From NCBI GenBank assembly GCA_016887505.1, contig CP069393.1, positions 434,001-498,000 of the forward strand: a DNA stretch of 64,000 bases. The letters are read 5' to 3'. Source of the DNA: Clostridia bacterium (GTDB lineage Bacteria > Bacillota > TC1 > UBA5767). The stretch's first letter is position 1. Each line of letters opens with the position of its first letter. The position numbers and the translations under genes are program-made. This document shows, in pieces, positions 11,517 to 58,568 of this stretch. The notes beneath the pieces are model-generated. The model was not told the DNA's origin and did not search any database. It saw only the letters and a program-made list of their open reading frames with translations.

Positions 11517-13670
11517 ATGCTAATGAAATATGTTAACGGATTGGATCCCATACTAATAGCGCTTGCTCTGATTCCTGTTGTGGTGATGGGAATAGTATTT
11601 GCATATTTCTTCATTCGCTATGACGTAATGGCTTTAGGAGCAATGCGTAAGGTTTTTTTGAAATACAGCAATAAAGCGAGTGACTTGCCACAAAAGGGAA
11701 GAGCTTATGAAAAATTATTCGTAAATGAGAACAAGGACGTAGAACCAAAGAGTTTTGTTTTAGGACGTGAACGATTGTTGCATATGCTTAACAGTCACTT
11801 TGAAGAGGATCTTTTACCAGAGGTAGAAGTATTCTTTCCAGAACAGTTACTACTAAATATCGAAGGCAATAGGGACGCCTTTAGGCTACTTTACCTAGTT
11901 GCACCTATGTTCGGTGTATTGGGTATAGTACTTCCCATTTTATATAATTCCATAAACGGATTGAGTGATCTATCTGAACCACTAGCAATCGGCGGGGTCG
12001 GTTTCGTATTGTTGGTGCTATTGATGCTGGTATTTACAATGCTTGACCTGGGTGCCCTACGGTCATCGAGAAAGCTATACCAGCATTTTTTGCATGCCTG
12101 CAACGCAGTGCTGCCAGTCATGAGTCAAAATGCAGGACCTGCGTTACTCGTTGAAGCAACGAGAAAGAGCCAACGCAACTATGCGAGTGCGACAAGAGAC
12201 TTAAATCACAGTTTTGAAATAAATGTAAACCGAATGGTTCAGGCCATGGAAAGTTTCACCGAAGGTGGCGTTTTACCAGCCCTACGTGATGCCATGGAAG
12301 AAATGATCAAAGACACCTTGCTAGTGGGTATGCAAAAGACCCATGATGAGATGCAAGGAGCTTTAGAAAAGATTTCTGCTCGAGAAGAACGCGGCGTACA
12401 AGATATGATTGAACGATTCAGCAACTTGTTGAATGAACGAGTAGATAGCTCTATGAGGGCTTTGGCCGATGATATGACTAAAGTCACGACACAACTATCT
12501 GAACAACAAAGACAAGCAATTGCGCATCAAGAGCAGTTTGATGCTTTTCTTAAAAGCAGTATGGAACTAGCAAGAGAAAATATGGAAGCCATGCTTACAA
12601 AGCAAGCTTCTGAACAAATGGCACAGAATGACCTGATCAAACAAAATCTGAAGTTGGCTGCAACTGCACTTGAAGAACAACAACAACAGTTTCTTGCCTT
12701 TCAGAAAGAACAGGCAGAAGAGCTTTCGTCTAGTGTTCAAGAACAGAATACAGCCTTGCAGGGAAGGATTCAGTTGCTAGCCGATTTGCGGGATGAGGAA
12801 AACGAGAGACTGGAAAAAAGTCAGAAAATGGTGGAAGAAGCAGTTCGTATTGAAGAAATTACTTCAGGACAGCTTCATGAAATAGGCACGGCCTTGAGCT
12901 TATTGCAAGAAGGTATTACTAAGTTCTCTAGTGAATCAGAGCGCTCTCACCATAAAACGATGGAGAGTATTACGGAGTTTGCTCAAACCCAAACAAGTTT
13001 TGTTGAAAAACTTGTTAATAGTGAAGAAACCTTGCAAAACTCCTTGAATTTGGGACTAGAACGGTATACCCAAATGGACGAGCTCGTGATGAATATGATG
13101 AATGGCATTACAAAACGGATGAACGATGCTATGGCAGGAGCCGGTAAAGAAATTGCACGTGGCGTAATTGAAGTCACTGAAAGTAATGCTGAGGCAATTG
13201 CTAATCTGACGGAACAAGCACAACAACTAAGAGATGACTATAGTAATTACTTTGGCAAAATGGATGATCAAACTAGAAAAACGCTTGAAGATATGGATTA
13301 CCAAATACAGCTGATTATATCTAGAGTAAATGAAGAAATAGGCAGTATGCTTAAAGAAATGATGGAACAGAATCATGAGAATGCTGCAAACCATAATGAG
13401 GCAACCTTAAGCCTTATGGAGTCCTTTAAAGAACAAGCGGAAAGCATCAGCTTGTATGCCAAAGAGATTAATTTGGACGTAAATGACTTAAAGGATGGAT
13501 TAAAAGAATCTGTTAAGGTCTTCAAAGAGGATACCAACGAATCAGTGCATCAAACTTTGGAAACCTTTGACGCAGGCTTGGCTGAACTGACGGAGCGGTT
13601 GGCCTTAACGACAGAGAGCATTCGGGAAGCGGTTGAAAACTTGCCTAATGCTATTCGTCATGACAATTAG
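11517..13670 (+). CDS. MotA/TolQ/ZorA-like membrane protein with long coiled-coil tail
   Basis: A 717-residue protein in the pilus operon. Hydrophobic segments lie at about 12-34, 118-142 and 155-178, separated by an 80-residue cytosolic stretch that ends in VFFPEQLLLN. Residues about 205-715 are almost unbroken alpha-helical coiled coil rich in Glu, Gln, Met and Leu. A compact membrane part followed by a very long helical tail is the layout of ZorA, the stator-like subunit of Zorya, and more loosely of MotA/ExbB/TolQ. The second and third segments (VAPMFGVLGIV and LAIGGVGFVLL) are only weakly like the ExbB channel motif. I infer a stator-like or force-transmitting role; a structural scaffold is the alternative. 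The ribosome site is GAGGAG. The next gene starts 5 bases after the stop. Confidence 0.6.
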   Translation: MLMKYVNGLDPILIALALIPVVVMGIVFAYFFIRYDVMALGAMRKVFLKYSNKASDLPQKGRAYEKLFVNENKDVEPKSFVLGRERLLHMLNSHFEEDLLPEVEVFFPEQLLLNIEGNRDAFRLLYLVAPMFGVLGIVLPILYNSINGLSDLSEPLAIGGVGFVLLVLLMLVFTMLDLGALRSSRKLYQHFLHACNAVLPVMSQNAGPALLVEATRKSQRNYASATRDLNHSFEINVNRMVQAMESFTEGGVLPALRDAMEEMIKDTLLVGMQKTHDEMQGALEKISAREERGVQDMIERFSNLLNERVDSSMRALADDMTKVTTQLSEQQRQAIAHQEQFDAFLKSSMELARENMEAMLTKQASEQMAQNDLIKQNLKLAATALEEQQQQFLAFQKEQAEELSSSVQEQNTALQGRIQLLADLRDEENERLEKSQKMVEEAVRIEEITSGQLHEIGTALSLLQEGITKFSSESERSHHKTMESITEFAQTQTSFVEKLVNSEETLQNSLNLGLERYTQMDELVMNMMNGITKRMNDAMAGAGKEIARGVIEVTESNAEAIANLTEQAQQLRDDYSNYFGKMDDQTRKTLEDMDYQIQLIISRVNEEIGSMLKEMMEQNHENAANHNEATLSLMESFKEQAESISLYAKEINLDVNDLKDGLKESVKVFKEDTNESVHQTLETFDAGLAELTERLALTTESIREAVENLPNAIRHDN

Positions 13671-30133: not shown

Positions 30134-31408
30134 CTAGAGTGAACTATTGGGAATATGTTTTTTGTAAATTTTAAGAATGATTTTTGTACCAATATTTTTG
30201 GATGATTCCACATAATAAGTAAAGGCATCTTCAAAATGCAGTCTCAATCTTTCGATGGTGTTGGCTAAACCGTAATGGGTGTCTGTGCTTAAATGCTCTT
30301 CATCGGATAATGGGGATTTCTTTATGTTTTTAAAGAAACGGTTTAATTGTTCCTCATCCATTCCTGCGCCGTTATCTTCTACGATAATGGTATAGTAATT
30401 TTCTGATTCACGTCCCAGTATTTGAACAACGCCTTCGCGATCTAAAGGTTCTAATCCATGTATTATTGAGTTTTCCACAAATATTTGAAGCGAGAAGAAG
30501 GGAAGCATGAGGCTTTTCAATGTATCTTCTACATCAATCACAAATTTAACACGATCACCAAAGCGGAAGTTTTGTAGATACAAGTATTTTTCTATATAGT
30601 TTAGCTCTTGTTCTAAGGTTACTAGATTGGTTTTATTATGTAGGCTGTAGCGCAACATTTTGGTAAAGGTTTCTAGGATATTTTGTGCACTGTCATATTC
30701 TTCAAGTTCTAGTAATCGAATTATACTAGATAGAATATTGAACATAAAATGCGGATCTACTTGATTCTGCATGGCACTTAGCTTGGCAAAGCGCAAGCTG
30801 TGCTCCAATATGGTTCGTTTCTTTTCTTGCTGGAAGAGAATATCCTGCTTTTTGAGGAGCTCTTCTTCCAAGGTTTCTTTGATATTTTTATCCACGATAT
30901 AATTTGCTAGCATGAAAAGGCTATTGGCTGCGGCGATGATTCTTTCTTTAGAAATAATCATTGTTTCTTCGCGTGCCTTTTTAAAATACTCAGTGTTAAA
31001 CCAAGGCATATTGTAGTCTTGTTCACCTATACTGGGAAAGGTATCATCCTCCAAGTTGTCACAACGTACTTGACCAGCCATTACTGTTCCAACAAATTTA
31101 TCATCAATTATGATAGGAATGATAATGTCGATTAAACCTGCATGGCATTGAAATATGTATGGTTTTTTTTGTTTTAAAGCGCGTAATCCGGCCACTCGAT
31201 TAGAGGCATAACAGCATTTTAGACCACCATCATGGCTATGGATAGATTTGCAAAAAGTGCAGAAGTTTGATCCTTCACCAAGATGTATCCCTTGGGGATC
31301 AGTAAAAACAACACCCATTCCAGTTGCTAGTGCAAAAGATTCTTCAATTTCCTTAAGCGTTTCCTTATCGATGTTGTGTATCTCTGTTACTAACTTCATA
31401 AGAGGCAT
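30134..31408 (-). CDS. PocR-domain histidine kinase (LytS/YesM type)
   Basis: A 424-residue cytosolic sensor kinase. Residues about 12-165 form a PocR sensory domain with the conserved cysteines (CTFCKSIHSH, LKCCYASN, IFQCHAG). PocR is a variant PAS-like domain known from propanediol regulation that senses small organic molecules. A coiled-coil linker follows. The histidine box DPHFMFNILSSI is near residue 222 and the ATPase core near 320-410 (FVENSIIHGLEP, VEDNGAGMDEEQ). It has no membrane helix, so it senses an internal ligand. It starts 1 base after the stop of the response regulator gene. The pair probably controls the divergent Gcv-like cluster. Confidence 0.92.
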   Translation of the reverse strand: MPLMKLVTEIHNIDKETLKEIEESFALATGMGVVFTDPQGIHLGEGSNFCTFCKSIHSHDGGLKCCYASNRVAGLRALKQKKPYIFQCHAGLIDIIIPIIIDDKFVGTVMAGQVRCDNLEDDTFPSIGEQDYNMPWFNTEYFKKAREETMIISKERIIAAANSLFMLANYIVDKNIKETLEEELLKKQDILFQQEKKRTILEHSLRFAKLSAMQNQVDPHFMFNILSSIIRLLELEEYDSAQNILETFTKMLRYSLHNKTNLVTLEQELNYIEKYLYLQNFRFGDRVKFVIDVEDTLKSLMLPFFSLQIFVENSIIHGLEPLDREGVVQILGRESENYYTIIVEDNGAGMDEEQLNRFFKNIKKSPLSDEEHLSTDTHYGLANTIERLRLHFEDAFTYYVESSKNIGTKIILKIYKKHIPNSSL

Positions 31409-31409
31409 A

Positions 31410-32480
31410 CTATCTCTCCTTGCATTTAGCTCTATATGCAGAAGGTGTCAAATCTAGGAATGATTTGAAAGTACGGTTGAAATGGCTAGTGTCATGATAG
31501 CCAACTTCCGTGGCGATTTCGCTAACCTTAAGGTTTGAATTTTCCAAAAGGTGTACAGCATGGTTGATCCTCAATTTATTCAGAAACTGGGGAAAAGACA
31601 TATTTGTTTCTTTGCTAATACATCTTGAAAGATGTGATTCACTAAAGTGAAACTGGTGACTTAATGATTTAAGGGTTATATCCTCTTGAAAATTATTCTG
31701 AATGAAATTAACAATGTTTTTTGTCTGATAGATTGTTGAAGAGTCATGTAGGAGAAGCTTTTCTGATATTGTTTGTTCGCTTTCAAGCAAAAGATTTTTG
31801 ATAGCTTGAATGCTATTTGCATTTTCTAAACGATGTATTGTTTGATTTCTAAATTGGTTGATACTTTCCGTATCAAAACCAATAAGCACCATGGTCCGGC
31901 TGATTTCATTTACGAAATCTTTAAGGCAATATTTGATTACGGATGTACCTTTTGGAGTCATAAGAATAGTTCGCATGAAATCTTGATAGCTTCGCTTGAA
32001 AAGTTTTACATCATAGTGTTGCATGGCACCAATGAGTGTTTTTTCCTCCATTAGAGGGTAGTCTGAAAGATTGTATTGATTGTTACTTATTCCACCTGTC
32101 TGTTGTTGTTGCCTGGTTTTAAGGTATAACTTTTCAATAATCTGAGTAAGCAGATAATCTTTAGCAGGTTTAATAATATATTCATCTGCACCCAAGCGTA
32201 GCGCTTTTTGCGCTAGTTCAAACTCTGCATAGGCTGTGTTGATAATAATCTGAATATTCTTATCGATAGCTTTGATTTCCTCTGTAGCTTGTAAGCCCCC
32301 CATAACAGGCATCTTAATATCCAATATGGCTATATCAATTGGATTATTTTGGACATACTCAACAGCGGATTTACCGTTATTTGCTGCATGTACGATTTGA
32401 AAATGACTATTTTGAGATAAGATTTTGTTAAGGTACTTCATCTCCAACATTTCGTCTTCAGCAATGAGAATTCGGATCAT
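31410..32480 (-). CDS. response regulator, REC plus AraC-type DNA-binding domain
   Basis: A 356-residue YesN-type regulator, partner of the PocR kinase. The receiver domain (1-120) has the acidic pair (EDE near 8), phospho-Asp in AILDIKMPVMGG near residue 55, and the switch Lys in IIKPAKD. The C-terminal AraC/XylS helix-turn-helix pair (about 258-352) includes FSESHLSRCISKETN and VGYHDTSHFNRTFK. Between them lies a 130-residue linker. It is the first gene of the minus-strand operon. Regulated genes are likely on the other side of the divergent spacer. Confidence 0.93.
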   Translation of the reverse strand: MIRILIAEDEMLEMKYLNKILSQNSHFQIVHAANNGKSAVEYVQNNPIDIAILDIKMPVMGGLQATEEIKAIDKNIQIIINTAYAEFELAQKALRLGADEYIIKPAKDYLLTQIIEKLYLKTRQQQQTGGISNNQYNLSDYPLMEEKTLIGAMQHYDVKLFKRSYQDFMRTILMTPKGTSVIKYCLKDFVNEISRTMVLIGFDTESINQFRNQTIHRLENANSIQAIKNLLLESEQTISEKLLLHDSSTIYQTKNIVNFIQNNFQEDITLKSLSHQFHFSESHLSRCISKETNMSFPQFLNKLRINHAVHLLENSNLKVSEIATEVGYHDTSHFNRTFKSFLDLTPSAYRAKCKER

Positions 32481-32927
32481 AGAGTTCCCCCCTTCAGGTG
32501 AATCAATTGCCTAATATTAATGATAACAAAAAAGATGAAAAATTGAAAATGAATTAAAATATATATGGAATAAAATTCAAGTTTTAATTGAAAATTGTGA
32601 GTAAAAAAAACCAATATGCCTACATAAAGGAAACATTCTTTTTTGTCCTAAAATGTCATTTCGTATGCTAAAGAATTAGAAACAGCCAGACTGGAGTAGC
32701 CGTTAATGATATTGATTCTCATCACGCAAAAACATGAATTTGCAATTTGCATGACAAGAATTGCCAATAGTTTCAAGGAAAACGATAAAATCATTGAACT
32801 TTTTATTGCAAAAGATACTTTTTATCATTATTTGTAAGGTTATCTTCATAGGGGATGTATGAATGATAAAGAAGAGTATTATATAGGACAAATAAAATTG
32901 ATTGATGGTTTATTGCTGGAGGAAACG
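32481..32927. promoter_or_regulatory. 447-base divergent control region
   Basis: AT-rich spacer between the two-component operon (minus) and the SDR (plus). It contains overlapping TTGCAATTTGCAT repeats near 32740-32752 and the word CAAGAATTGCCA at 32755-32766, repeated before the gcvPA-like gene. A TTGAAC at 32794 may be a -35 box for the SDR. No gene is supported inside. Confidence 0.4.
32755..32766 (+). promoter_or_regulatory. candidate operator CAAGAATTGCCA, copy 1
   Basis: The same 12 bases occur at 33795-33806. This copy starts 173 bases before the SDR start; the other starts 175 bases before the gcvPA-like start. Equal distance supports a common binding site, perhaps for the AraC-type regulator. 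Confidence 0.4.
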
Positions 32928-33734
32928 ATGGAGATACACAAAAAGAAATTAGACAAGCGAATTGCAATTGTGACCGGGGCCACTAAAGGTAATGGGCTGG
33001 CTGGAGTCATGGGATTAGCCAAGCATGGAGCAAAGGTTTATATGGTGGACAGTGATATAAGTGTACATGAAAGGGCTCATGAGTTAAGAAAACAAGGCTA
33101 TTGCGTTAATGGGATATTGCTTGATGTGTGTGATCAATACGCAGTTAAGGTTGTACTGAATGAGATGGTACATGAAGAAGGAAGAATTGACATCTTATTG
33201 AATAGCGTTCGATTCATAACATTAAAATCATTTATGGAACTGAGTAATACCGAGCGAGATGCACTTTTCGACGAAACGATTAAAGGCGTATGGAATTGTT
33301 CTCGTGCTGTTTATCCGTATATGTTAGAGAAGGATTATGGAAAAATTATTAATATGTCTTTTGCGCCAGAGCTGAAAGAAGTAGACAATATCGAGCCATC
33401 CTATGCTATTGCTAAAGCTGCTATTTGGGGTTTTACCCAAGCTCTGGCCTACGAGGCAGCTAGATATGGTATTAACGTGAATGCAATTTGCCCGGGCCAC
33501 ATTCTAACCCCATCGCTTCAGCAGTGTGTACTAAAATCTAATCCAATAAATCCAAACAAAGAAATAGAAAAACTTGCTACTTCAATACCGCTAGGACGTT
33601 TGGGCTCTATGGAAGAAATCGGAGAACTAGTCGCTTTTTTAGCTAGTGACGAAGCATCCTATTTGGTTGGGACTCAGATATTTATTGATGGTGGGAGCAC
33701 TTTAGCGGAGAACTTCAACATGGCAATGTGCTAA
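32928..33734 (+). CDS. short-chain dehydrogenase/reductase
   Basis: A 268-residue classical SDR. The dinucleotide motif is TGATKGNG near residue 14, catalytic Tyr/Lys are in SYAIAK near 152-157, and PGHILTP follows. The usual NNAG motif is changed to NSVRF. The C terminus has DEASYLVGTQIFIDGG. It reduces or oxidises an alcohol/ketone; the substrate is unknown. The ATG at 32928 has a strong GGAGGAAACG site; a longer frame from 32859 adds 23 residues with no family match. It is the first plus-strand gene after the PocR system. Confidence 0.88.
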   Translation: MEIHKKKLDKRIAIVTGATKGNGLAGVMGLAKHGAKVYMVDSDISVHERAHELRKQGYCVNGILLDVCDQYAVKVVLNEMVHEEGRIDILLNSVRFITLKSFMELSNTERDALFDETIKGVWNCSRAVYPYMLEKDYGKIINMSFAPELKEVDNIEPSYAIAKAAIWGFTQALAYEAARYGINVNAICPGHILTPSLQQCVLKSNPINPNKEIEKLATSIPLGRLGSMEEIGELVAFLASDEASYLVGTQIFIDGGSTLAENFNMAMC

Positions 33735-33794
33735 CAGATATTGTCAAATGCTGAACAAAAAATAACAACTTTTAGAAAACGGTTTGCGATATAG

Positions 33795-33806
33795 CAAGAA
33801 TTGCCA
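33795..33806 (+). promoter_or_regulatory. candidate operator CAAGAATTGCCA, copy 2
   Basis: An exact copy of the word at 32755-32766, in the 235-base gap before the gcvPA-like gene, same orientation. A separate inverted repeat, TGTGCC (33897-33902) with GGCACA (33929-33934), lies closer to the gene. Confidence 0.4.
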
Positions 33807-33969
33807 CAATATGCTAGGAAGTGTCCATAGGAGTACGATTTATTATGGTGAATCTAATATTTAGTTAAGAAATATTCGGAACGATTTTTTGATGTTTGTG
33901 CCGAATCGATAGGGGGGATGGGCTTCTAGGCACAATGCAACCAAAACTAATAAATTGGAGGGAAACTTA

Positions 33970-35358
33970 ATGAGCGGTAAAGGTAATATTGTATATCCTT
34001 ATATTCCTAATTCAGTACCTGAAGTTAGACAGGCAATGTTGGACGAGTTGGGTTTTGAGAGTGAAGAAGATATTTATAAAGAGATACCAGATCGTCTGAG
34101 ATTTCACGGTGAAATGAAGATGCCTGCCCCTATTTTATCTGAGGCAAGATTACAAAGACACGTTGAAAAAATATTCGCAAAAAATGAGAACGTAAAAGAT
34201 AATATTTGTTTCTTAGGTGGTGGTATTTGGAATCACTATGTACCAGCTGTATGTGACACCATTGGTGGACGTGATGAGATTCTTACCTCCTATGTTGGTG
34301 AAGCCTTCTCTGACCATGGCAAATTCCAAATCTTGTTTGAAAGTGAAAGTATGCTGGGAGACTTAACCGGTTTTGAAGCATGTAATACTCCGACCTATGA
34401 TTGGGCGAATGCAATAGCCATCGTTTCAAGAATGGCTTCTAGAACTACAGGCAGAAAAGAAATATTAGTATCTGAGAATATTAGTCCTGATAGAAAAATA
34501 ATTAACGAAAACTATTGCAAACCTGATATTTCAATCGTAGAAGTAAAATATGATTTTGAGAATCGGTGTTTAGATCTTGATGATCTAAGAAGCAAGGTTT
34601 CTGATAAAACAGCCATGGTTTATTTCGAAAATCCATCCTATCTTGGATTCATTGAAACCCAAGGTGCGGAAATTGTTGAGATTGCACATGCTAAAGGTGC
34701 AACAGTGGCAGTAGGTGTAGATCCTACTTCATTGGGCGTATTGGAAGCACCTGGAGATTTCGGTGCAGACTACGCTGTTGGTGAATTACAACCACTAGGT
34801 ATCCACATGTCTTGTGGTGGTGGACTAGGTGGATTCATTGCAACAAAAGATGAAGAAAAATTCGTAGCTGAGTACCCGTCATTATTGTTTGGTGTATTAC
34901 CTACAGTAAAAGAAGGCGAGTATGGATTCGGCCAGGTTGCATTTGAGAGAACTTCCTATGGATCTCGTGAAAAAGGCAAAGACTTTATTGGTACCTGTGC
35001 TGCTTTACATGGAATGATTGCCGCTGTTTATTTGGCACTCATGGGTCCTGCTGGCATGAAAGACCTTGGCTCAACGATCCTACAGCGTATGGCTTATGCC
35101 AAGGCTGAAATTGCTAAGGTTCCAGGCGTAAAAGTATATGATGGATACAACTTCAAAGAATTCGTTGTTAACTTTGATGATTGTGGAAAATCTGTTGCTG
35201 AAATTAACAGACTACTTCTTAAAAAGAAAATTTTTGGTGGCATCGATTTGACAAAATCATTCCCCGAACTAGGAAGTTCAGCATTGTATTGTGTAACTGA
35301 AATGCTTACCAAAGAAGATATTGATGATTTGGTAGTAGCACTGAACGAAATATGTTAG
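33970..35358 (+). CDS. glycine dehydrogenase (decarboxylating) subunit 1-like protein (GcvPA paralogue)
   Basis: A 462-residue PLP-fold protein of the GcvP alpha type. Family features are IPNSVPEVRQAML at the start, FLGGGIWNHYVPAV, ENPSYLGFIE and AVGVDPTSLGVLEAPGDFGADY. Where canonical GcvPA reads roughly YTPYQPEISQG and then MYDG, this protein reads SYVGEAFSDHGK and PTYDW. From knowledge of the family these are substrate-side loops, so the substrate may not be glycine. I chose the ATG at 33970 (GGAGGGAAACTTA before it) over a TTG 15 bases upstream. It forms a complex with the next gene product. No GcvH or GcvT is in the window. Confidence 0.85.
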   Translation: MSGKGNIVYPYIPNSVPEVRQAMLDELGFESEEDIYKEIPDRLRFHGEMKMPAPILSEARLQRHVEKIFAKNENVKDNICFLGGGIWNHYVPAVCDTIGGRDEILTSYVGEAFSDHGKFQILFESESMLGDLTGFEACNTPTYDWANAIAIVSRMASRTTGRKEILVSENISPDRKIINENYCKPDISIVEVKYDFENRCLDLDDLRSKVSDKTAMVYFENPSYLGFIETQGAEIVEIAHAKGATVAVGVDPTSLGVLEAPGDFGADYAVGELQPLGIHMSCGGGLGGFIATKDEEKFVAEYPSLLFGVLPTVKEGEYGFGQVAFERTSYGSREKGKDFIGTCAALHGMIAAVYLALMGPAGMKDLGSTILQRMAYAKAEIAKVPGVKVYDGYNFKEFVVNFDDCGKSVAEINRLLLKKKIFGGIDLTKSFPELGSSALYCVTEMLTKEDIDDLVVALNEIC

Positions 35359-35395
35359 TAGGGTTTAAAAAATTAAAATGGAGGTTGAAGTATAG

Positions 35396-36979
35396 ATGAG
35401 TAAACCATATGTAAGAACGAATTTCCACGAAGCTCGCTGGGATGAACCGATGATATATGAGCTTTCTACTCCAGGTACGAGAGGCATATTAGTTCCTGAA
35501 GTTGAGGATGAAATCGTTGAAGCTGTTGGCGATGTTGCTGCAGCGTTACCTGACAGTGTAAAAAGAAGTGCACCTCTTCTTTTACCGGAAGTAGACCAAA
35601 AACATGTTTTGGCTCACTACATCCATCTGACTCAGGAAGCAATGGGTTCCAACTTAAGTAATGACTTAAGTGAAGGAACCTGCACAATGAAATACAATCC
35701 ACGTTTAAGCGAAGCAATGGCTCTTAATCCTAACTTTGCAGAGGTACACCCAGAACAGCCTGATAGCACCATTCAAGGTACTTTGGAATTGTTCTATAAA
35801 TTTGAACAAATCATGAAGGAAGTTTCAGGGATGGATCGTTTTAGTTTCCAACCTGGTGGTGGTAACCATGCTGTATACTGTGGTGCATCCGTAATGCGTG
35901 CCTACCATGCTTCTAGAAAAGATGACAAGAGAGACACCATTATCACTACAATCTTTTCACATCCATGTGATGCTGCAGCTCCAAATACAGCTGGTTATAA
36001 AGTTGTTACCTTGTATCCGGATGAAAAAGGTATTCCTGATTATGAAGCTTTGAAGAAAGCTGTTGATGAAATTGGTGATCACTTAGCTGGTATCTTTATG
36101 ACAAACCCTGAAGATATTGGTATTTACAATCCTAATATCGACAAGTTTGTTGAAAAAGTTCACTCCGTAGGTGGTTTAGTCTACTACGACCAAGCCAATG
36201 CCAATGCCTTCCTTGGCGTGGTTAGAGCAAGAGAAGCAGGCGTAGATATGTGCCACTTCAATGTACATAAAACGTTTGGTACTCCACACGGTGGTGAGGG
36301 TCCAGCAAACGGAGCTCTTGGCGTTCGCGAATTTTTGACTAAATTCTTACCACTACCGACTATTGAATTTGACGGAGACAAATATTACAGAGATTACGAT
36401 AGACCAGAAAGTTTCGGTAAACTTAGAGAGTATATTGGTACTGCTGGCGTAATCATGAGAGCATATAGTTGGGCTATGATGCATGGCGCAGAAGGTTTAC
36501 GCATGTGTGCAAATATTTCTGTATTGAACAATAACTACCTTGAGAAGAAACTCCTTTCCATCAAGGGTCTTGGAGAAGCATTCCTCGGAAACGGCATTAC
36601 CAGACAAGAACAATGCCGTTACAGTTGGGAAGAGCTTAAAAAAGATACTGGTATTGGTACAGATGATATTAACAAACGAATCAATGACTACGGAATTCCT
36701 TGGTATTGGGCTTCTCACCACCCATGGGTTATTCCAGAGCCTATGACATTGGAACCATGCGAAACGTATAGCAAGTGTGATTTGGAAGAATACTTTATGA
36801 CCTTGAAAGTGGTTGCAGATGAAGCCTATGAAAATCCAGAAGTAGTACTTTCTGCTCCGCATAAGAGCGCATCTCACGACCTTGCTAATCCAGAAGACCT
36901 GGATGATCCAGCAAAATGGGCAATTACGTGGAGAGCATTCTTGAAAAAACACGGCGATAAATATCTAAAAGTAAAATAG
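35396..36979 (+). CDS. glycine dehydrogenase (decarboxylating) subunit 2-like protein (GcvPB paralogue)
   Basis: A 527-residue PLP enzyme subunit, longer than usual GcvPB (about 480). The PLP lysine lies in HFNVHKTFGTPHGGEGP near residue 295; canonical GcvPB has STPHGGGGPG at this place. Early motifs are clear (GSNLSNDLSEGTCTMKYNP, FSFQPGGGNHA). Near the end, the canonical GFHPPTxYFP...MIEPTETESKE region is replaced by YGIPWYWASHHPW and LEPCETYSKCD. Together with the changes in the alpha subunit this marks a distinct paralogue. The ribosome site is TGGAGGTTGAAGTATAG. It sits 37 bases after the alpha subunit. Confidence 0.85.
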   Translation: MSKPYVRTNFHEARWDEPMIYELSTPGTRGILVPEVEDEIVEAVGDVAAALPDSVKRSAPLLLPEVDQKHVLAHYIHLTQEAMGSNLSNDLSEGTCTMKYNPRLSEAMALNPNFAEVHPEQPDSTIQGTLELFYKFEQIMKEVSGMDRFSFQPGGGNHAVYCGASVMRAYHASRKDDKRDTIITTIFSHPCDAAAPNTAGYKVVTLYPDEKGIPDYEALKKAVDEIGDHLAGIFMTNPEDIGIYNPNIDKFVEKVHSVGGLVYYDQANANAFLGVVRAREAGVDMCHFNVHKTFGTPHGGEGPANGALGVREFLTKFLPLPTIEFDGDKYYRDYDRPESFGKLREYIGTAGVIMRAYSWAMMHGAEGLRMCANISVLNNNYLEKKLLSIKGLGEAFLGNGITRQEQCRYSWEELKKDTGIGTDDINKRINDYGIPWYWASHHPWVIPEPMTLEPCETYSKCDLEEYFMTLKVVADEAYENPEVVLSAPHKSASHDLANPEDLDDPAKWAITWRAFLKKHGDKYLKVK

Positions 36980-36990
36980 CATACATTTTA

Positions 36991-37028
36991 AACCGAGGAG
37001 CAGCCATTTATTGGCTGCCCTTCGGGTT
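36991..37028 (+). other. intercistronic stem-loop
   Basis: A long hairpin: AACCG-AGG-A-GCAGCCA pairing with TGGCTGC-CCT-T-CGGGTT, loop TTTAT, no T run. It may set relative mRNA stability between the gcvPB-like gene and the kinase gene. Confidence 0.5.
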
Positions 37029-37051
37029 AATCTAGAAAAGGGTGTGACATT

Positions 37052-38176
37052 TTGGCTAAAAAAATAGGAATTATTGTTAATCCAGTAGCTGGAATAGGTG
37101 GAAGAGTTGGTCTTAAGGGATCTGACGGTGAAGCCATTTTAGCCAAAGCTCTGGAGCTGGGCGCAAAACCTGAATGCCCGAATAAAGCGGTTGTGGCAAT
37201 CAGCCAGTTCAAGGATTTCACAACCGAACCATTGGAAATATATACCTATCCCAAAGAAATGGGGGAAGATGAGGTTCGAGCTGCAGGCTTAGAACCGATT
37301 GTTATTGGTGAAATTGATTCTGGACACACTACTCCGGAGGATACTATCCGAGCAGCAAAAGAAATCTTCGATATAGGCGTAGACCTTATTCTGTTTGCTG
37401 GTGGCGATGGTACCGCTAGAAATATACTAGATGCTGTTGGAGAAAAAACTGCAGTACTCGGTATTCCCGCGGGATGTAAAATTCACTCTGCTGTATACGC
37501 AATAAATCCCAAAACGGCTGGAAAGCTTGTAATGGAGTTTCTAGAAGGCAAGGTTCAAGATGTTAAAGAAGCTGAAGTAATGGACATCGATGAAGATGCT
37601 TTTCGTGAAGGAATATTACGAGCTAGGCTTTATGGTTATATGAGAGTCCCCAATGAAAAAAGGATGGTTCAAAACCTGAAAAGTGGACGCGGATATGGTG
37701 AGGAAGCAGCACTAGATTTGGTTGCACGCTACATTGCTTTCAATCTGGAAAAAGATGTTTTATATATCATGGGAACAGGTTCGACTGTTAGAGGCGTCAT
37801 GAACAAACTAGAGCTTCCTAACACCTTGCTAGGTGTAGACCTTGTATACAATAATGAGGTTTTGGCTAATGACGTTAATGAAACTGAAATACTATCTTAT
37901 TTGGAAAAGTATGATTCAGCACGAATCATAATAACCGTGATTGGCGGACAAGGCTACCTATTTGGTAGAGGAAATCAGCAACTGAGTCCGAAAGTAATCA
38001 GGAAAGTCGGATTGGATAACATAAGAATAATTGCCACAAAGAACAAAATGTTTTCACTATTCGCTCAACCACTTTTAGTTGACACAGGCGACGAGAAACT
38101 AAATGAAGAACTGAGTGGATATGCAAGAGTGACTGTTGGTTATGGTGAGTCTGTAATGTTTAAAGTGCATTCTTAG
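37052..38176 (+). CDS. ATP-NAD kinase family protein (COG3199 type)
   Basis: A 374-residue protein of the ATP-NAD/AcoX kinase group. The N terminus is KKIGIIVNPVAGIGGRVGLKG; the nucleotide motif FAGGDGTARNI is near residue 117. The C-terminal half contains IMGTGSTVRGVMNKL and TVIGGQGYLFGRGNQQ. AcoX-type members occur in catabolic operons (acetoin and amino acid degradation) rather than as the main NAD kinase. Here it follows the Gcv-like subunits and precedes the permease, which fits a pathway-specific role. The substrate is not proven. The start is TTG after GGGTGTGACATT. Confidence 0.88.
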   Translation: MAKKIGIIVNPVAGIGGRVGLKGSDGEAILAKALELGAKPECPNKAVVAISQFKDFTTEPLEIYTYPKEMGEDEVRAAGLEPIVIGEIDSGHTTPEDTIRAAKEIFDIGVDLILFAGGDGTARNILDAVGEKTAVLGIPAGCKIHSAVYAINPKTAGKLVMEFLEGKVQDVKEAEVMDIDEDAFREGILRARLYGYMRVPNEKRMVQNLKSGRGYGEEAALDLVARYIAFNLEKDVLYIMGTGSTVRGVMNKLELPNTLLGVDLVYNNEVLANDVNETEILSYLEKYDSARIIITVIGGQGYLFGRGNQQLSPKVIRKVGLDNIRIIATKNKMFSLFAQPLLVDTGDEKLNEELSGYARVTVGYGESVMFKVHS

Positions 38177-38202
38177 TATGACCAGAGAAGGAGGTTCAAC
38201 GT

Positions 38203-39654
38203 ATGTCAGATAATCTCGGAACGAATCCAGGCGCTGGAACACGTATGGAAGGTGCCGGTAAACTGAAGAAAAGTCTGAGACTGCTCTATGTGTATGCATT
38301 GGCAACGGGAGCAATTCTAACGTTTATCGGATATTGGGATGGCATTTTCTTGACGGGTGCTGGTCCTGCAACATTTTTATCATTTTTCCTAATGACCTTA
38401 ATGGTATTACCTGTAGCGTTTGTTTATTGTGAATTAACAGCTATGTTTCCGAATACAGGTGCCGAACTCGTTTTTAATACGATCGGTTTAAACAAATACT
38501 GGGGTTTCCTATCTGCTTGGGCAATTATGGCAGCCTGGATTGCAGTGCCCCCTGCAGCTGTAATGGGCATTCTAGAGTGGATAAACTATGCATTTCGCTT
38601 GGAAATGAACTTTAGCACAATTGTCACAATCGCAACCATAGTACTTATACTTTATACGGCATTGAGCTTGAGTGACATTAATTTATCTGGACAAATCCAA
38701 ACGTTCATGTTGTTCTCAGCATTGTTTGGTGTTACATTAACAGGAATCATTTTCCTATTTTCCGGACATTGGAGTTTTGCCAACTTTACACCGTTCTTCC
38801 AATCAGCACATGCTGGTGGCGGAAGTGCAGGAACTGGTGGTATTGCCGGCTGGATTATTGGAACTGCCCTGATCGTAACTCCATTTTTCGGCTTTGAAAC
38901 TGTACCTCAACTGGTTGAAGAAGGGGACTTCCCAATTAAAGATACCAGTAAAGCAATCTTGGGTTCTGTATTAACTTGCGGTGCTTTATATGTATTCTTC
39001 TTCTTTGCATTGGCAGGTATGGGAGATTGGGCTACTTTAACTGAAGCTGGAACCAACGCTCCATTCGTAGCCATAAAAGTTATTGAGAGTACCTTAGGCT
39101 GGTATGGATATTCCATATTCTTTGGAGTTACAGCTGTATTGTTCACGATAGGTACCTGTATCCTTGGATTCTGGATTTCCACAGTACGTTTGATGTACGC
39201 TATGGGAAGACAAGGTTTCTTGCCAAAAGTTTTCTCCAAAGTTAACAAACATCAACAACCTATCGTTCCAAACTTAGTAGTACTAGGACTTTCACTAGGT
39301 GCAATCTTCATTATGAATGCTGGTACTTATTTGGAAGACTTTTTCACAGTAATGGCCTTGTCCGTTGCAATTGCTTATACGATTACAATGTTCTCCTCAA
39401 CAAGAATTGCAATCAATCATCCTGAATGGGACCGGCCTTACATTTTAAAAGGTGGTCAAGGATTCAGATGGTTTGCCTTTTTTATTGCTATCGGCATTGC
39501 AATCCTATGTGCTATTGGTCTTCCAATCGGTGCATGGATTAGCTGGGGCTGGTACATGGGCATTGGCGTATTGCTAATTGCTTTTATGGCCGCTTTCCGT
39601 TGGAAAAAAGAACCAGTATGGATGGTAACACCTGACGGCGAAAAAGAATTTTAA
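38203..39654 (+). CDS. amino acid permease (APC superfamily)
   Basis: A 483-residue transporter with about 12 membrane helices. The first helices contain ALATGAILTFIGYWDGIF and VAFVYCELTAMFPNTGAE, the APC pattern with the unwound helix 1 (usually GSGI, here ATGAI). It probably brings in the amino acid handled by the Gcv-like subunits; its substrate is not readable from sequence. The ribosome site is AGAAGGAGGTTCAACGT. It ends the first part of the cluster, followed by a strong terminator. Confidence 0.92.
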   Translation: MSDNLGTNPGAGTRMEGAGKLKKSLRLLYVYALATGAILTFIGYWDGIFLTGAGPATFLSFFLMTLMVLPVAFVYCELTAMFPNTGAELVFNTIGLNKYWGFLSAWAIMAAWIAVPPAAVMGILEWINYAFRLEMNFSTIVTIATIVLILYTALSLSDINLSGQIQTFMLFSALFGVTLTGIIFLFSGHWSFANFTPFFQSAHAGGGSAGTGGIAGWIIGTALIVTPFFGFETVPQLVEEGDFPIKDTSKAILGSVLTCGALYVFFFFALAGMGDWATLTEAGTNAPFVAIKVIESTLGWYGYSIFFGVTAVLFTIGTCILGFWISTVRLMYAMGRQGFLPKVFSKVNKHQQPIVPNLVVLGLSLGAIFIMNAGTYLEDFFTVMALSVAIAYTITMFSSTRIAINHPEWDRPYILKGGQGFRWFAFFIAIGIAILCAIGLPIGAWISWGWYMGIGVLLIAFMAAFRWKKEPVWMVTPDGEKEF

Positions 39655-39677
39655 GATAACAACTCCGTTGCCTGTAT

Positions 39678-39711
39678 GTAGATCTGCTCTTCGGAGCAGG
39701 TCTACTTTTTT
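39678..39711 (+). terminator. intrinsic terminator after the permease
   Basis: GTAGATCTGCTC, tetraloop TTCG, GAGCAGGTCTAC, then TTTTTT. A textbook structure with one G-U pair. Confidence 0.92.
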
Positions 39712-39730
39712 CGATGAAAGCTAGGTTGGT

Positions 39731-40939
39731 ATGAAAGAGAAGAGCCACAGATTCTTGATTGTTACCGTCATGTTTTTAGGACTTATGATGCAAAATATTC
39801 TTTGGTTTGCGCCGGCACCGTTCTTATCTTTAATAGTTGAGGAGTTGGGCATGAATATGGCCCAGGCTGGTCTAAGCATGTCAATAATTGGTCTAATTAC
39901 AGCCATCTCGGGCCTTTTTTTAGGAGGATTCTTCATAAACGTTGGTATCAAGAAAACTTTCAGCATGGCCTTAATTCTGATGTCCATAGGTTCTTTTATG
40001 AATCTGATTGTGAATGGCTTTTGGGCCCTCTTACTGGCTAGAATATTGATAGGGATAGGTTTTGGGTTTTGCCTGCCAGTTGCGGGTACGGTGATTATGA
40101 CTTATTTTACCCAGGAAGAAAGACCTTACTTAAACACGGTAAATTCACTTCTCCCGTACTTAGCAACGGCCATGACTTTTATTTTGACTATTCCGGTATT
40201 CAAATTGCTCGGGTCCTGGCGGATGACTCTAGCGCTACCAGGTGTATTTTCTTTAGGAGCACTATTATTGTGGCTTAAGTATTATTTTGATCAAACCGAA
40301 GCAATGCAAGTAGAGGAACGACTAAATCGCAATATTTTGAGGGAACTTATCAAGAACCGAGAAGTAGTTCTGCTTACCATTGCCGATATCTGTGATATGT
40401 GGAGTTTTCAGTTTGTTACAACCTATATGGCGACATTTTTCTACACAGAAGCATTGCTTTCTCTAGAAAAATCATCATATCTGATGTCCATATTTCCAAT
40501 TGCAGGAATCATTGCCGGGCTCTCCTGTGGCATTGCAATGAGCAAAATCGGGCTCAGAAAACCCTTCACTTGGCCATTGCATCTGACCATATTTATTGGC
40601 ACTACTATGGCCTTGTATTTAACAGGATTTGGCCGGATGTTCGGAATATTCTTGTCAGGATTTGGTAATGCTGGTTGGGCTCCTGCTCTATTTACCATGC
40701 CCATGGAATTTGACGATATGACTCCTGAAAAGGTAGGGGCAGTGTATGCACTAATGCTTTCTGGTGGATTTCTAGCAGCTTTTGTTTCCCCTTTTTTAGG
40801 AGGATATCTAACAAAATTTATGTCGCTGAGAACAGTATTATTTCTGTTTTCAATGCCTTCGTTACTGGCTGCCTTCGTTACTTGGAATATGAAGGAAACT
40901 GGAAGAAAACGGTCAGTAGCCGAGATGCGTTATCGATGA
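39731..40939 (+). CDS. major facilitator superfamily transporter
   Basis: A 402-residue MFS carrier with about 12 helices. Signature parts: PFLSLIVEELGMNMAQAG, LARILIGIGFGFCLP and GGYLTKFMSLR. The closest recognisable type is the CynX/NimT-like or oxalate-type uptake MFS, but I cannot decide. It starts 20 bases after the terminator and leads into two further genes, so it may be a second transcript of the same regulon. The ribosome site (CTAGGTTGGT) is weak. Confidence 0.88.
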   Translation: MKEKSHRFLIVTVMFLGLMMQNILWFAPAPFLSLIVEELGMNMAQAGLSMSIIGLITAISGLFLGGFFINVGIKKTFSMALILMSIGSFMNLIVNGFWALLLARILIGIGFGFCLPVAGTVIMTYFTQEERPYLNTVNSLLPYLATAMTFILTIPVFKLLGSWRMTLALPGVFSLGALLLWLKYYFDQTEAMQVEERLNRNILRELIKNREVVLLTIADICDMWSFQFVTTYMATFFYTEALLSLEKSSYLMSIFPIAGIIAGLSCGIAMSKIGLRKPFTWPLHLTIFIGTTMALYLTGFGRMFGIFLSGFGNAGWAPALFTMPMEFDDMTPEKVGAVYALMLSGGFLAAFVSPFLGGYLTKFMSLRTVLFLFSMPSLLAAFVTWNMKETGRKRSVAEMRYR

Positions 40940-40953
40940 ATTGAGGTGTTTAG

Positions 40954-41511
40954 ATGATGGATAACGATTTTGAAAGAAGTATTGTAGCTGATACCACTAA
41001 GTTGGTGCAAGAATTAATCGAGGTAAGCGCTCTATCGGCGGGGGATCTCTTGGTGATTGGATGTAGCACAAGTGAGATTGACGGCTCAAGAATTGGAAAA
41101 AAATCTGTCCCTGAGTACGGGAAAATCATCATCGAAGCGGTCATGCCATTAATCAAGAAACATGGAATACATTTGGCGACCCAGTGTTGTGAACATTTGA
41201 ATAGAGCCTTGGTGGTCGAAGCAGAGTATGCAGCCTCTAGGGAATTAGAGCGAGTTACTGTAGTTCCACACCCAAAGGCAGGTGGATCATTAAGCAGTGC
41301 CTATTATCGGTATCTCAAGAACCCTGCTATGGTGGAAACGATTGCGGCTGATGCTGGAATAGACATTGGAGATACCTTGATTGGAATGCATCTAAAAAGA
41401 GTAGCGATTCCGTTGCGTTTGTCGGTTAAAAGTATCGGTGCGGCACATGTGACTGCAGCTAAAACGAGACCAAAACTGATTGGCGGAGAACGGGCAAAAT
41501 ATGATATATGA
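40954..41511 (+). CDS. UPF0340/TIGR01440 family protein
   Basis: A 185-residue cytosolic protein of the YwlG family (DUF436). The conserved block LLVIGCSTSEIDGSRIG is near residue 33, CCEHLNRALVVE near 75, and the end has GGERAKYDI. The biochemical function of this family is not established. Length fits. It lies 14 bases after the MFS gene and 39 bases before an SDR; it is usually found near glyA/upp genes in Bacillus, so this location is unusual. The ribosome site is GAGGTGTTTAG. Confidence 0.9.
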   Translation: MMDNDFERSIVADTTKLVQELIEVSALSAGDLLVIGCSTSEIDGSRIGKKSVPEYGKIIIEAVMPLIKKHGIHLATQCCEHLNRALVVEAEYAASRELERVTVVPHPKAGGSLSSAYYRYLKNPAMVETIAADAGIDIGDTLIGMHLKRVAIPLRLSVKSIGAAHVTAAKTRPKLIGGERAKYDI

Positions 41512-41550
41512 TGAGCGTGCTGGACTGTGAATCCATGGGAGGAGAATGAA

Positions 41551-42327
41551 ATGGAAAGACTGAAGGGTAAAGTTGCAATCATATCAGGTGGAGCATTGGG
41601 TATTGGTGAGGCAGACAGTCTGCTGTTTGCAAGAGAAGGTGCAAAGGTAATTATTGGTGATATAAACGTAGAAGCCGGAGAAGCACTAGCTGCAAAAATC
41701 ACAGACGAGGGTTATATCGCCAGCTTCTGTCATTTAGATGTTTCCAAGGAAGAGTCTTGGTTAAAACTATTCTCTTTTTGCAAAGAAAAGTATGGAAAGA
41801 TAAATGTACTCGTGAACAACGCTGGTGTTTCCTTGGGGAAAGATATTGAAGAAACAACCTTGGAAGATTGGAACTGGCTTATGGGAATTAATTCAACAGG
41901 TGTCTTTTTAGGAACCAAATATGCCATTGAAAATATGAAAGACAATGGAGAAAATTGTTCTATTGTTAACCGTTCTTCAATTGATGGACAAGTGGGAGAA
42001 GCTGGCTTAGCAGCGTACTGTGCTTCTAAAGGTTCAGTTACGATTCTAACTAAATCTGCTGCACTTGCTTGTGGCGAAAAAGGATACAAAATCCGGATTA
42101 ATTCAGTACACCCAGGTTATGTACATACATCTTTAACTGAAAAAGAAGCAGCAGATTCTGGCCTAACCAAAGATGAGTATTTTGCAAAGGTTGGAAAAAT
42201 GCATCCTATCGGTTATATTGGTAGACCAATAGACATAGCCTATGCTGACTTATTTCTTGCGTCAGATGAATCCATATTTAGTACAGGATCAGAAATTACG
42301 GTAGATGGTGGTTGGACTGCTCAGTAG
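41551..42327 (+). CDS. short-chain dehydrogenase/reductase
   Basis: A 258-residue classical SDR, second in the cluster. Motifs: SGGALGIGEAD near residue 11, NNAGVSLGKDIEE near 88, catalytic Ser in NRSSIDGQ and YCASK near 153, and SEITVDGGWTAQ at the end. It is more canonical than the SDR at 32928 (NNAG intact). Start at 41551 after GGGAGGAGAATGAA; a GTG 24 bases upstream in the same frame overlaps this site. The substrate is unknown; it probably oxidises a hydroxy intermediate of the pathway. Confidence 0.9.
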   Translation: MERLKGKVAIISGGALGIGEADSLLFAREGAKVIIGDINVEAGEALAAKITDEGYIASFCHLDVSKEESWLKLFSFCKEKYGKINVLVNNAGVSLGKDIEETTLEDWNWLMGINSTGVFLGTKYAIENMKDNGENCSIVNRSSIDGQVGEAGLAAYCASKGSVTILTKSAALACGEKGYKIRINSVHPGYVHTSLTEKEAADSGLTKDEYFAKVGKMHPIGYIGRPIDIAYADLFLASDESIFSTGSEITVDGGWTAQ

Positions 42328-42339
42328 GGTTATTAACTA

Positions 42340-42372
42340 AAATGAGGGCTCCTAGGAGCCCTCATTTCTTAT
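42340..42372. terminator. bidirectional terminator
   Basis: AAATGAGGGCTCC, loop TAG, GAGCCCTCATTT with flanking A and T runs. It ends the SDR on the plus strand, and the minus-strand peptide gene runs into it. Confidence 0.85.
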
Positions 42373-48033: not shown

Positions 48034-48109
48034 GGTGGGTGTAGTTCAAAGGTAGAGCGCCAGATTGTGGTTCTGGATGTTGTGGGTTCGAGTCCCATCA
48101 TCCACCCCA
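48034..48109 (+). tRNA. tRNA-His (GTG)
   Basis: Full cloverleaf with anticodon loop TTGTGGT on stem CCAGA/TCTGG. Acceptor GTGGGTG pairs with CATCCAC; the extra 5' G (position -1), a mark of tRNA-His, pairs with discriminator C. CCA is encoded. Confidence 0.96.
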
Positions 48110-48114
48110 AATAT

Positions 48115-48191
48115 GCTCCATTAGCTCAGTTGGCTAGAGCACCTGACTTTTAATCAGGGTGTCCCGCGTTCGAGTCGCGGATGGGGTACCA
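48115..48191 (+). tRNA. tRNA-Lys (TTT)
   Basis: Acceptor GCTCCAT/ATGGGGT, anticodon loop CTTTTAA on stem CCTGA/TCAGG, T arm CCGCG TTCGAGT CGCGG. CCA is encoded. Confidence 0.95.
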
Positions 48192-48195
48192 TAGT

Positions 48196-48280
48196 GCGGG
48201 TGTGGCGGAATTGGCAGACGCGCTAGATTTAGGATCTAGTGGTGAAAACCGTGGGGGTTCAAGTCCCTTCACCCGCACCA
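48196..48280 (+). tRNA. tRNA-Leu (TAG)
   Basis: 85 bases with the long variable arm of class II. Acceptor GCGGGTG/CACCCGC, anticodon loop TTTAGGA on stem CTAGA/TCTAG. CCA is encoded. Confidence 0.95.
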
Positions 48281-48285
48281 CATAT

Positions 48286-48360
48286 GCGGAAGTGGCTCAG
48301 TGGTAGAGCATCGCCTTGCCAAGGCGAGGGTCGCGAGTTCGAATCTCGTCTTCCGCTCCA
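48286..48360 (+). tRNA. tRNA-Gly (GCC)
   Basis: Acceptor GCGGAAG/CTTCCGC, anticodon GCC on stem TCGCC/GGCGA, T arm GCGAG TTCGAAT CTCGT. CCA is encoded. Confidence 0.95.
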
Positions 48361-58333: not shown

Positions 58334-58568
58334 AAGAAGATAGATTGGTTAAATGCTATGAAAAGGAAGAGTACCTATCACGACTCCTTAAGAGAAGATG
58401 GCCTAGGCTGGAAGTCATCTGAGTACGGTTAGGGAACGTCACCTTGGAGCTGTGTATCTGAATGCTAGTAGGATATACCGGTTGTTCCGTTATAACTTTT
58501 GAGAGGTTGAATCAACAATTAAGGTGGTACCGCGAAGAACTCGTCCTTATGGGAGGTTCTTTTTTTTT
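58334..58568 (+). promoter_or_regulatory. T-box riboswitch (valine-tRNA responsive)
   Basis: Leader of valS. The T-box core AAGGTGGTACCGCG is at 58521-58534, followed by a terminator hairpin (58535-58568) with a run of T. The stem I region has AGAGTACC and a distal loop around GATGGCCTAGGCTGG. The likely specifier codon is GTC (Val) at 58438-58440 in AACGTCACC, in agreement with the gene downstream. Uncharged tRNA-Val would stabilise the antiterminator and allow valS transcription. Confidence 0.93.

Follow-up and report, generated by a model that had tools for sequence, protein, structure and literature searches.

A 64,000-nucleotide stretch of the Clostridia bacterium contig CP069393.1 (referred to below as the window, meaning the whole of the DNA analyzed) carries, at positions 32928-42327, a gene cluster that raises a simple question: what is the role of a pair of proteins resembling GcvPA and GcvPB, the two subunits of the glycine cleavage P-protein, in a cluster that contains no GcvH, GcvT or Lpd? 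We designate these proteins PA' and PB', and the kinase-like protein encoded after them K. An initial annotation of the locus proposed that the pair had lost several P-protein signatures and uses a GcvP-type step to break down some other amino acid or amine. The reading we favor, at roughly even odds, is that PA'/PB' is a separate P-protein subfamily and, together with K, constitutes a catabolic module linked to glycine and working without the lipoyl-H carrier. Annotation of the cluster with Pfam and NCBIfam profiles gave the following central genes.

~33970..35358, + strand, PA', GcvPA-like subunit of 462 amino acids (NF001696, 436.9 bits; homology to 1wyt_A)
35396..36979, + strand, PB', GcvPB-like pyridoxal phosphate (PLP) subunit of 527 amino acids (NF003346, 502.7 bits; also assigned by its residues and by trees)
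37052..38176, + strand, K, protein of the NAD-kinase/diacylglycerol-kinase fold with a GGDGT motif (PF01513, 59.9 bits; PF20143, 55.3 bits)

An alternative TTG start of PA', at 33955, is present in the open reading frame list. Both subunits exceed the NCBI cut-offs for glycine dehydrogenase (364 bits for GcvPA and 441 bits for GcvPB), so databases would assign that name to the pair.

The relationship of the pair to true P-proteins was examined by phylogeny. In a tree of 65 PB' and 30 canonical GcvPB sequences with SH-aLRT branch support, one branch separates the two sets with a support of 100. In a second tree, to which split forms (Thermus and Deinococcus) and fused forms (E. coli, Synechocystis, Phaeobacter and Arthrobacter) were added, all added P-proteins grouped with the canonical side, and the support of the separating branch was again 100. 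The pair thus falls outside every canonical glycine P-protein sampled, and not within their clade. Nor is it the sole P-protein of its genome, a single 2.56-Mb contig that is 99% complete (completeness figures here and below are estimates). The same genome has a canonical gcvT-gcvPA-gcvPB operon located behind a tandem glycine riboswitch, one gcvH at another site and a lipoate ligase (LplA), and its second GcvPB is 38% identical to PB'. Because a complete canonical set is present elsewhere in the genome, PA'/PB' is an extra P-protein of this cell.

The residues of the active site were compared next to this canonical copy and to relatives. PB' retains the PLP lysine, K292, as the initial annotation had stated, and the aspartate that contacts PLP N1, D265; both are invariant in the 65 relatives. 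H291 and T293 are also kept, and PA' lacks a PLP lysine. The loss of P-protein signature stretches was borne out by alignment, including that with the genome's own canonical copy: in the pair, PYQPEISQG is replaced by VGEAFSDHG, STPHGGGGP by GTPHGGEGP, GFHPPTIYF by GIPWYWASHH, and EPTETESKE by EPCETYSKC. Columns conserved in canonical proteins are retained at 38 of 115 positions in PA' and 78 of 197 in PB'. Other residues are newly fixed across the family, namely T95, D240, R403, E405, R408, H441, P449 and T451 in PB' and D115 and G341 in PA'. Judged from sequence, this pattern speaks for a functional enzyme whose active site has changed and against decay, and it supports the view that PA'/PB' is not a standard glycine dehydrogenase. 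A structure model of PB' (mean pLDDT, a per-residue confidence score, of 68) was too poor to be used.

PA'-PB' genes were detected in 39 loci of named genomes, in 26 of 398 genomes of the phylum and in eight plasmid records, the plasmid carriers including Rhodococcus, Gemmobacter, Sphingomonas, Paracoccus, Antarctobacter, Roseicitreum and Natronosalvus. Beyond the phylum, the module occurs in Synergistota, actinobacterial, alphaproteobacterial and haloarchaeal records. K adjoins the pair nearly everywhere. When neighbors were counted over 30 independent PB' groups, K was present in 23, a short-chain dehydrogenase/reductase (SDR) in 16, an APC permease in 8, an M20 deacylase in 7 and DUF436 in 4, and gcv genes were found beside the module in several; canonical glycine-cleavage genes adjoin it in L009/L105, L107, L110, L114, L141 and L021. 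The distance matrices of PB' and K are correlated (r = 0.79), with none of 2000 permutations as high. Vagococcus elongatus has three modules, and Hespellia, G402 and G413 have two each; every copy inspected in these multi-copy genomes carries its own K. In a genome of the same order, L129 (7264-10964) holds a broken PA'-PB'-K copy with frameshifts or stops.

K resembles NAD kinase (PF01513/PF20143) and DgkB in its GGDGT nucleotide motif, which is invariant in 30 sequences, and in its modeled fold (Z ~9-11 to NADK and DAGK chains over ~130 residues). It differs from them in its length of 374 amino acids, in a glycine-rich N-terminal stretch, NPVAG(x)GG(x)VGLKGSDG, and in being a genomic partner of PLP enzymes; no NCBIfam model matches it. 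The initial annotation called K an AcoX-type ATP-NAD kinase. The NAD-kinase domains were matched, whereas the AcoX-type label could not be verified. The acetoin dehydrogenase genes acoABC, whose linkage would mark an AcoX of acetoin catabolism, are absent from the cluster. The two Hespellia operons have K proteins that are 68% alike and PB' proteins that are only 48% alike; the target of K is therefore probably shared by all copies, and a substrate-specific kinase is disfavored. With its NADK/DAGK-type fold, K might provide the SDRs with NADP or might phosphorylate a shared product.

Does the module depend on the lipoyl-bearing H protein? Such dependence was first suggested by LipS1/LipS2, LplA, Lpd and gcv genes adjoining the module in several lineages (in these loci, the names LipS1/LipS2, LplA and Lpd come mostly from visual inspection of the sequence or from homology between loci, and not from curated models). 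Three genomes, G074 (99% complete, 1% contamination), G319 (94%) and G032 (94%, 7% contamination), carry PB' and K but lack a canonical GcvPB and any ligase of the LplA/LipB type, and none of their GcvH matches exceeds ~24 bits. The weak hits in G074 (within a 1160-residue frame) and G319 (over model residues 21-75) look like biotinyl domains. A fourth genome, G244 (92% complete), lacks GcvH and canonical GcvPB and has a lipoate ligase. Since the module occurs in genomes without GcvH or ligase, the PA'PB' family as a whole cannot require the lipoyl-H protein, and glycine is a better reason than lipoyl dependence for the gcv and lipoyl gene neighborhood. From homology, we infer that the window's own copy, whose genome does have GcvH, would likewise be independent of it. 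A strong GcvH match was found in 20 of 23 good module-bearing genomes versus 197 of 267 phylum genomes, i.e., it is not clearly commoner with the module.

The link to glycine comes from regulatory elements. According to published work, the usual targets of glycine riboswitches are genes for glycine cleavage or transport (PMC6944388). Rfam detected aptamers of such riboswitches directly upstream of PA' in L009, L013, L014, L110, L031, L113 and L118. These operons represent at least three lineages, and L118 belongs to G074, one of the genomes without GcvH. PA' is the first gene after the riboswitch, apart from chance open frames of <70 codons. A covariance model built here and applied to 87 loci revealed no PA' operon beyond the Rfam set and duplicates. 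In L031 and L110, the 5' arm of a terminator stem (15 bp and 20 bp, respectively) begins in a conserved AAGGACAG segment, which is also the 3' strand of P1 of aptamer 2. Because of this overlap, ligand binding should prevent termination, as in an ON switch. The same arrangement is visible in the sequences of L014, L013, L009 and L113, where a simple stem search was less clear; most riboswitch-led PA' operons thus appear to have an ON-type platform, an assignment not extended to L118, which has a single aptamer. Two successive tandem riboswitches (four aptamers) precede one PA' operon in L014 (7656-8248), L009 (7759-8244) and L110 (12685-13185). In L114, a riboswitch is located ahead of a transporter gene upstream of the module. 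In L140 (6853-17735), K ends a canonical gcvT-H-PA-PB-(dehydrogenase)-LipS1-LipS2-LplA-Lpd operon led by a tandem glycine riboswitch, and PA'PB' of that genome is at another site.

Most riboswitch-led copies belong to a single clade, which also includes the window's PB'; the latter agrees with them at most positions of the family-variable motifs. Because relatives' operons sit behind glycine riboswitches, several of them beside gcv genes, glycine is by analogy the likeliest substrate or inducer of the module. The proposal that a different amino acid is degraded was thus not supported, given that these riboswitches lead operons of this very family, the majority of which belong to the window's clade. 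The proposed GcvP-type step is unlikely in the usual lipoyl-dependent sense, as homologous modules are present in genomes without lipoyl machinery.

Taken together, PA'/PB' is like the split GcvPA/GcvPB (e.g., 1wyt of Thermus thermophilus) in subunit order, full-length homology, location of the PLP lysine on the B subunit and, in some relatives, glycine riboswitch control. It is unlike GcvPA/GcvPB in forming a separate clade (~38% identity), in having motifs replaced by other conserved residues, in its constant kinase partner, and in being found without lipoyl machinery and not tied to GcvH/T/L.

A possible mechanism can be outlined. The APC permease would import glycine, which would form an aldimine with PLP on PB'. 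A glycine-derived carbanion, formed as in P-protein, would then be handed to an acceptor other than lipoyl disulfide. The simplest acceptor would be a proton, yielding methylamine; a carbonyl compound (an aldehyde or keto acid), yielding an amino alcohol or hydroxy amino acid, would better fit the paralogs and the SDRs. The SDRs and K would process the product or supply a cofactor, and the window operon would probably be induced via a divergent PocR two-component system in place of a riboswitch. More tentatively, and short of even confidence, this may be a further route of glycine breakdown beside the glycine cleavage system and glycine reductase, which would be lipoyl- and possibly folate-independent, glycine-induced, equipped with a dedicated kinase and present in several phyla and in haloarchaea.

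Several observations weigh against a glycine-linked, lipoyl-free module. Neither Rfam nor the covariance model detected a glycine riboswitch in the window. K is absent from G073, G197 and G280, and the several paralogs per genome could mean several substrates. The lipoyl-free genomes G074, G319 and G032 lie outside the window's subclade, in which the only genomes without GcvH and canonical GcvPB are two metagenome-assembled genomes of uncertain completeness, G402 (L012, two modules) and G406 (L018).

Among the alternatives, the one that survives best, though we consider it unlikely, is that glycine is a product: PA'PB' would release it by cleaving some other compound, either a beta-hydroxy or beta-keto amino acid or, once hydrolyzed, an N-acyl derivative, and the riboswitches and gcv neighbors would respond to this product. 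SDRs and M20 deacylases near the module (16 and 7 of the 30 groups), formamidase-like genes in L124 and L014, the adjacency of canonical gcv genes in several lineages, and the paralogous modules of Vagococcus, Hespellia and G413, whose neighbors differ, would all agree with this scheme. However, the position of PA' as the first gene behind riboswitches is a better fit to control by substrate than by product, and no upstream substrate recurs across lineages.

Quite improbable, in our estimate, is the scheme of the initial annotation, in which a different amino acid or amine, unrelated to glycine, is degraded. It draws on the deep divergence and motif loss, on the PocR sensor, on the lack of a glycine riboswitch in the window and on the multiple paralogs. 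It is at odds with the glycine riboswitches found ahead of this operon in three or more lineages, mostly within the window's clade. Least probable is a second lipoyl-dependent glycine P-protein that borrows GcvH, GcvT and Lpd of the genome, perhaps for other conditions, since, even though the NCBI GcvPA/GcvPB cut-offs are passed, gcvH, gcvT and LplA are available and several lineages have gcv and lipoyl genes beside the module, motifs common to all canonical forms are lost and the module is present in G074, G319 and G032 without GcvH, canonical GcvPB or lipoate ligase.

If the glycine-linked reading holds, it bears on genome annotation. Such genes, named glycine dehydrogenase, have been used to infer glycine cleavage or the reductive glycine pathway in uncultured genomes (e.g., PMC10327494). 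For genomes with only PA'PB', this conclusion is probably wrong, and PA'/PB' sets are probably a different, wrongly named glycine-linked system. A P-protein relative free of the lipoyl carrier would show rewiring of the best-known family of glycine-splitting enzymes, and the kinase partner provides a directly testable pathway. A literature search confined largely to papers outside subscription journals yielded no description of a PA'-PB'-K system; papers on Thermacetogenium, Dehalobacteriia and Formimonas either treat canonical genes alone or are silent on the module.

The remaining features of the window cluster are as follows.

30134..31408, - strand, PocR-domain sensor histidine kinase, divergent from the operon (PF10114, 144 bits; PF06580; PF02518)
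31410..32480, - strand, response regulator with an AraC-type helix-turn-helix domain, divergent from the operon (PF00072 and PF12833)
32859..33734, + strand, SDR1, UcpA-like SDR (under the UcpA family cut-off)
38203..39654, + strand, APC-family amino acid permease (PF13520)
39678..39705, + strand, terminator-like hairpin in the gap between the permease and MFS genes (12-bp stem, then a T-run; consensus match only)
39731..40939, + strand, MFS carrier (PF07690)
40954..41511, + strand, DUF436/UPF0340 protein (TIGR01440, 227.6 bits, above cut-off)
41527..42327, + strand, SDR2, an SDR (Pfam/NCBIfam matches)
42340..42367, + strand, terminator-like hairpin closing the cluster (12-bp stem, then a T-rich tail; consensus match only)

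The eight genes from SDR1 to SDR2 are intact, all on the + strand and at their predicted positions, separated by 15-77 bases except for ~235 bases ahead of PA'. Every gene named in the initial annotation was found in its place, and its description of a catabolic-type cluster that includes a permease, stands under a PocR two-component system and lacks GcvH, GcvT and Lpd was correct. SDR1 adjoins the module in relatives too, and the PocR histidine kinase is also present in the close relatives L004, L007 and L010. The cluster is like PocR/AraC-regulated catabolic operons in that a PocR sensor domain and an AraC-type DNA-binding domain are encoded beside a small-molecule catabolic operon, and unlike them in that the two domains are here distributed over separate proteins, a histidine kinase and a response regulator.

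Single neighboring genes in other genomes pointed to hydroxylysine, threonine-phosphate and methylamine routes, which were considered and left as leads; the neighbors concerned were LacZ in L119/L128, a CobD/HisC-like gene next to a paralog of K, and a pyrrolysine mtbB in L127. This mtbB (11998-13144; TIGR02368, dimethylamine methyltransferase) directly follows SDR-SDR-PA'-PB'-K and ends at the pyrrolysine position, and it is accompanied by a PYLIS_2 element, a corrinoid protein and an MttB-family gene. A beta-galactosidase gene is located directly before SDR-PA'-PB' in L131 (13155-17700) and L132 (1227-8191), in unrelated families and with K not adjoining. A paralog of K with 38-42% identity to the window's protein is paired with an aminotransferase of the HisC/CobD type in L138 (8677-10745), L137 (8668-10727) and L147 (7992-10068), i.e., in two genomes of the same genus and on a Peptoclostridium acidaminophilum plasmid, where the two genes are beside hydG; this is a second pairing of the kinase family with a PLP enzyme. 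In L139 (176-3469), K is flanked by deoC and a pyrimidine-nucleoside phosphorylase gene. The window itself also holds a T-box leader (58349-58551) and a cluster of four tRNA genes (48035-48357), both unrelated to the module.

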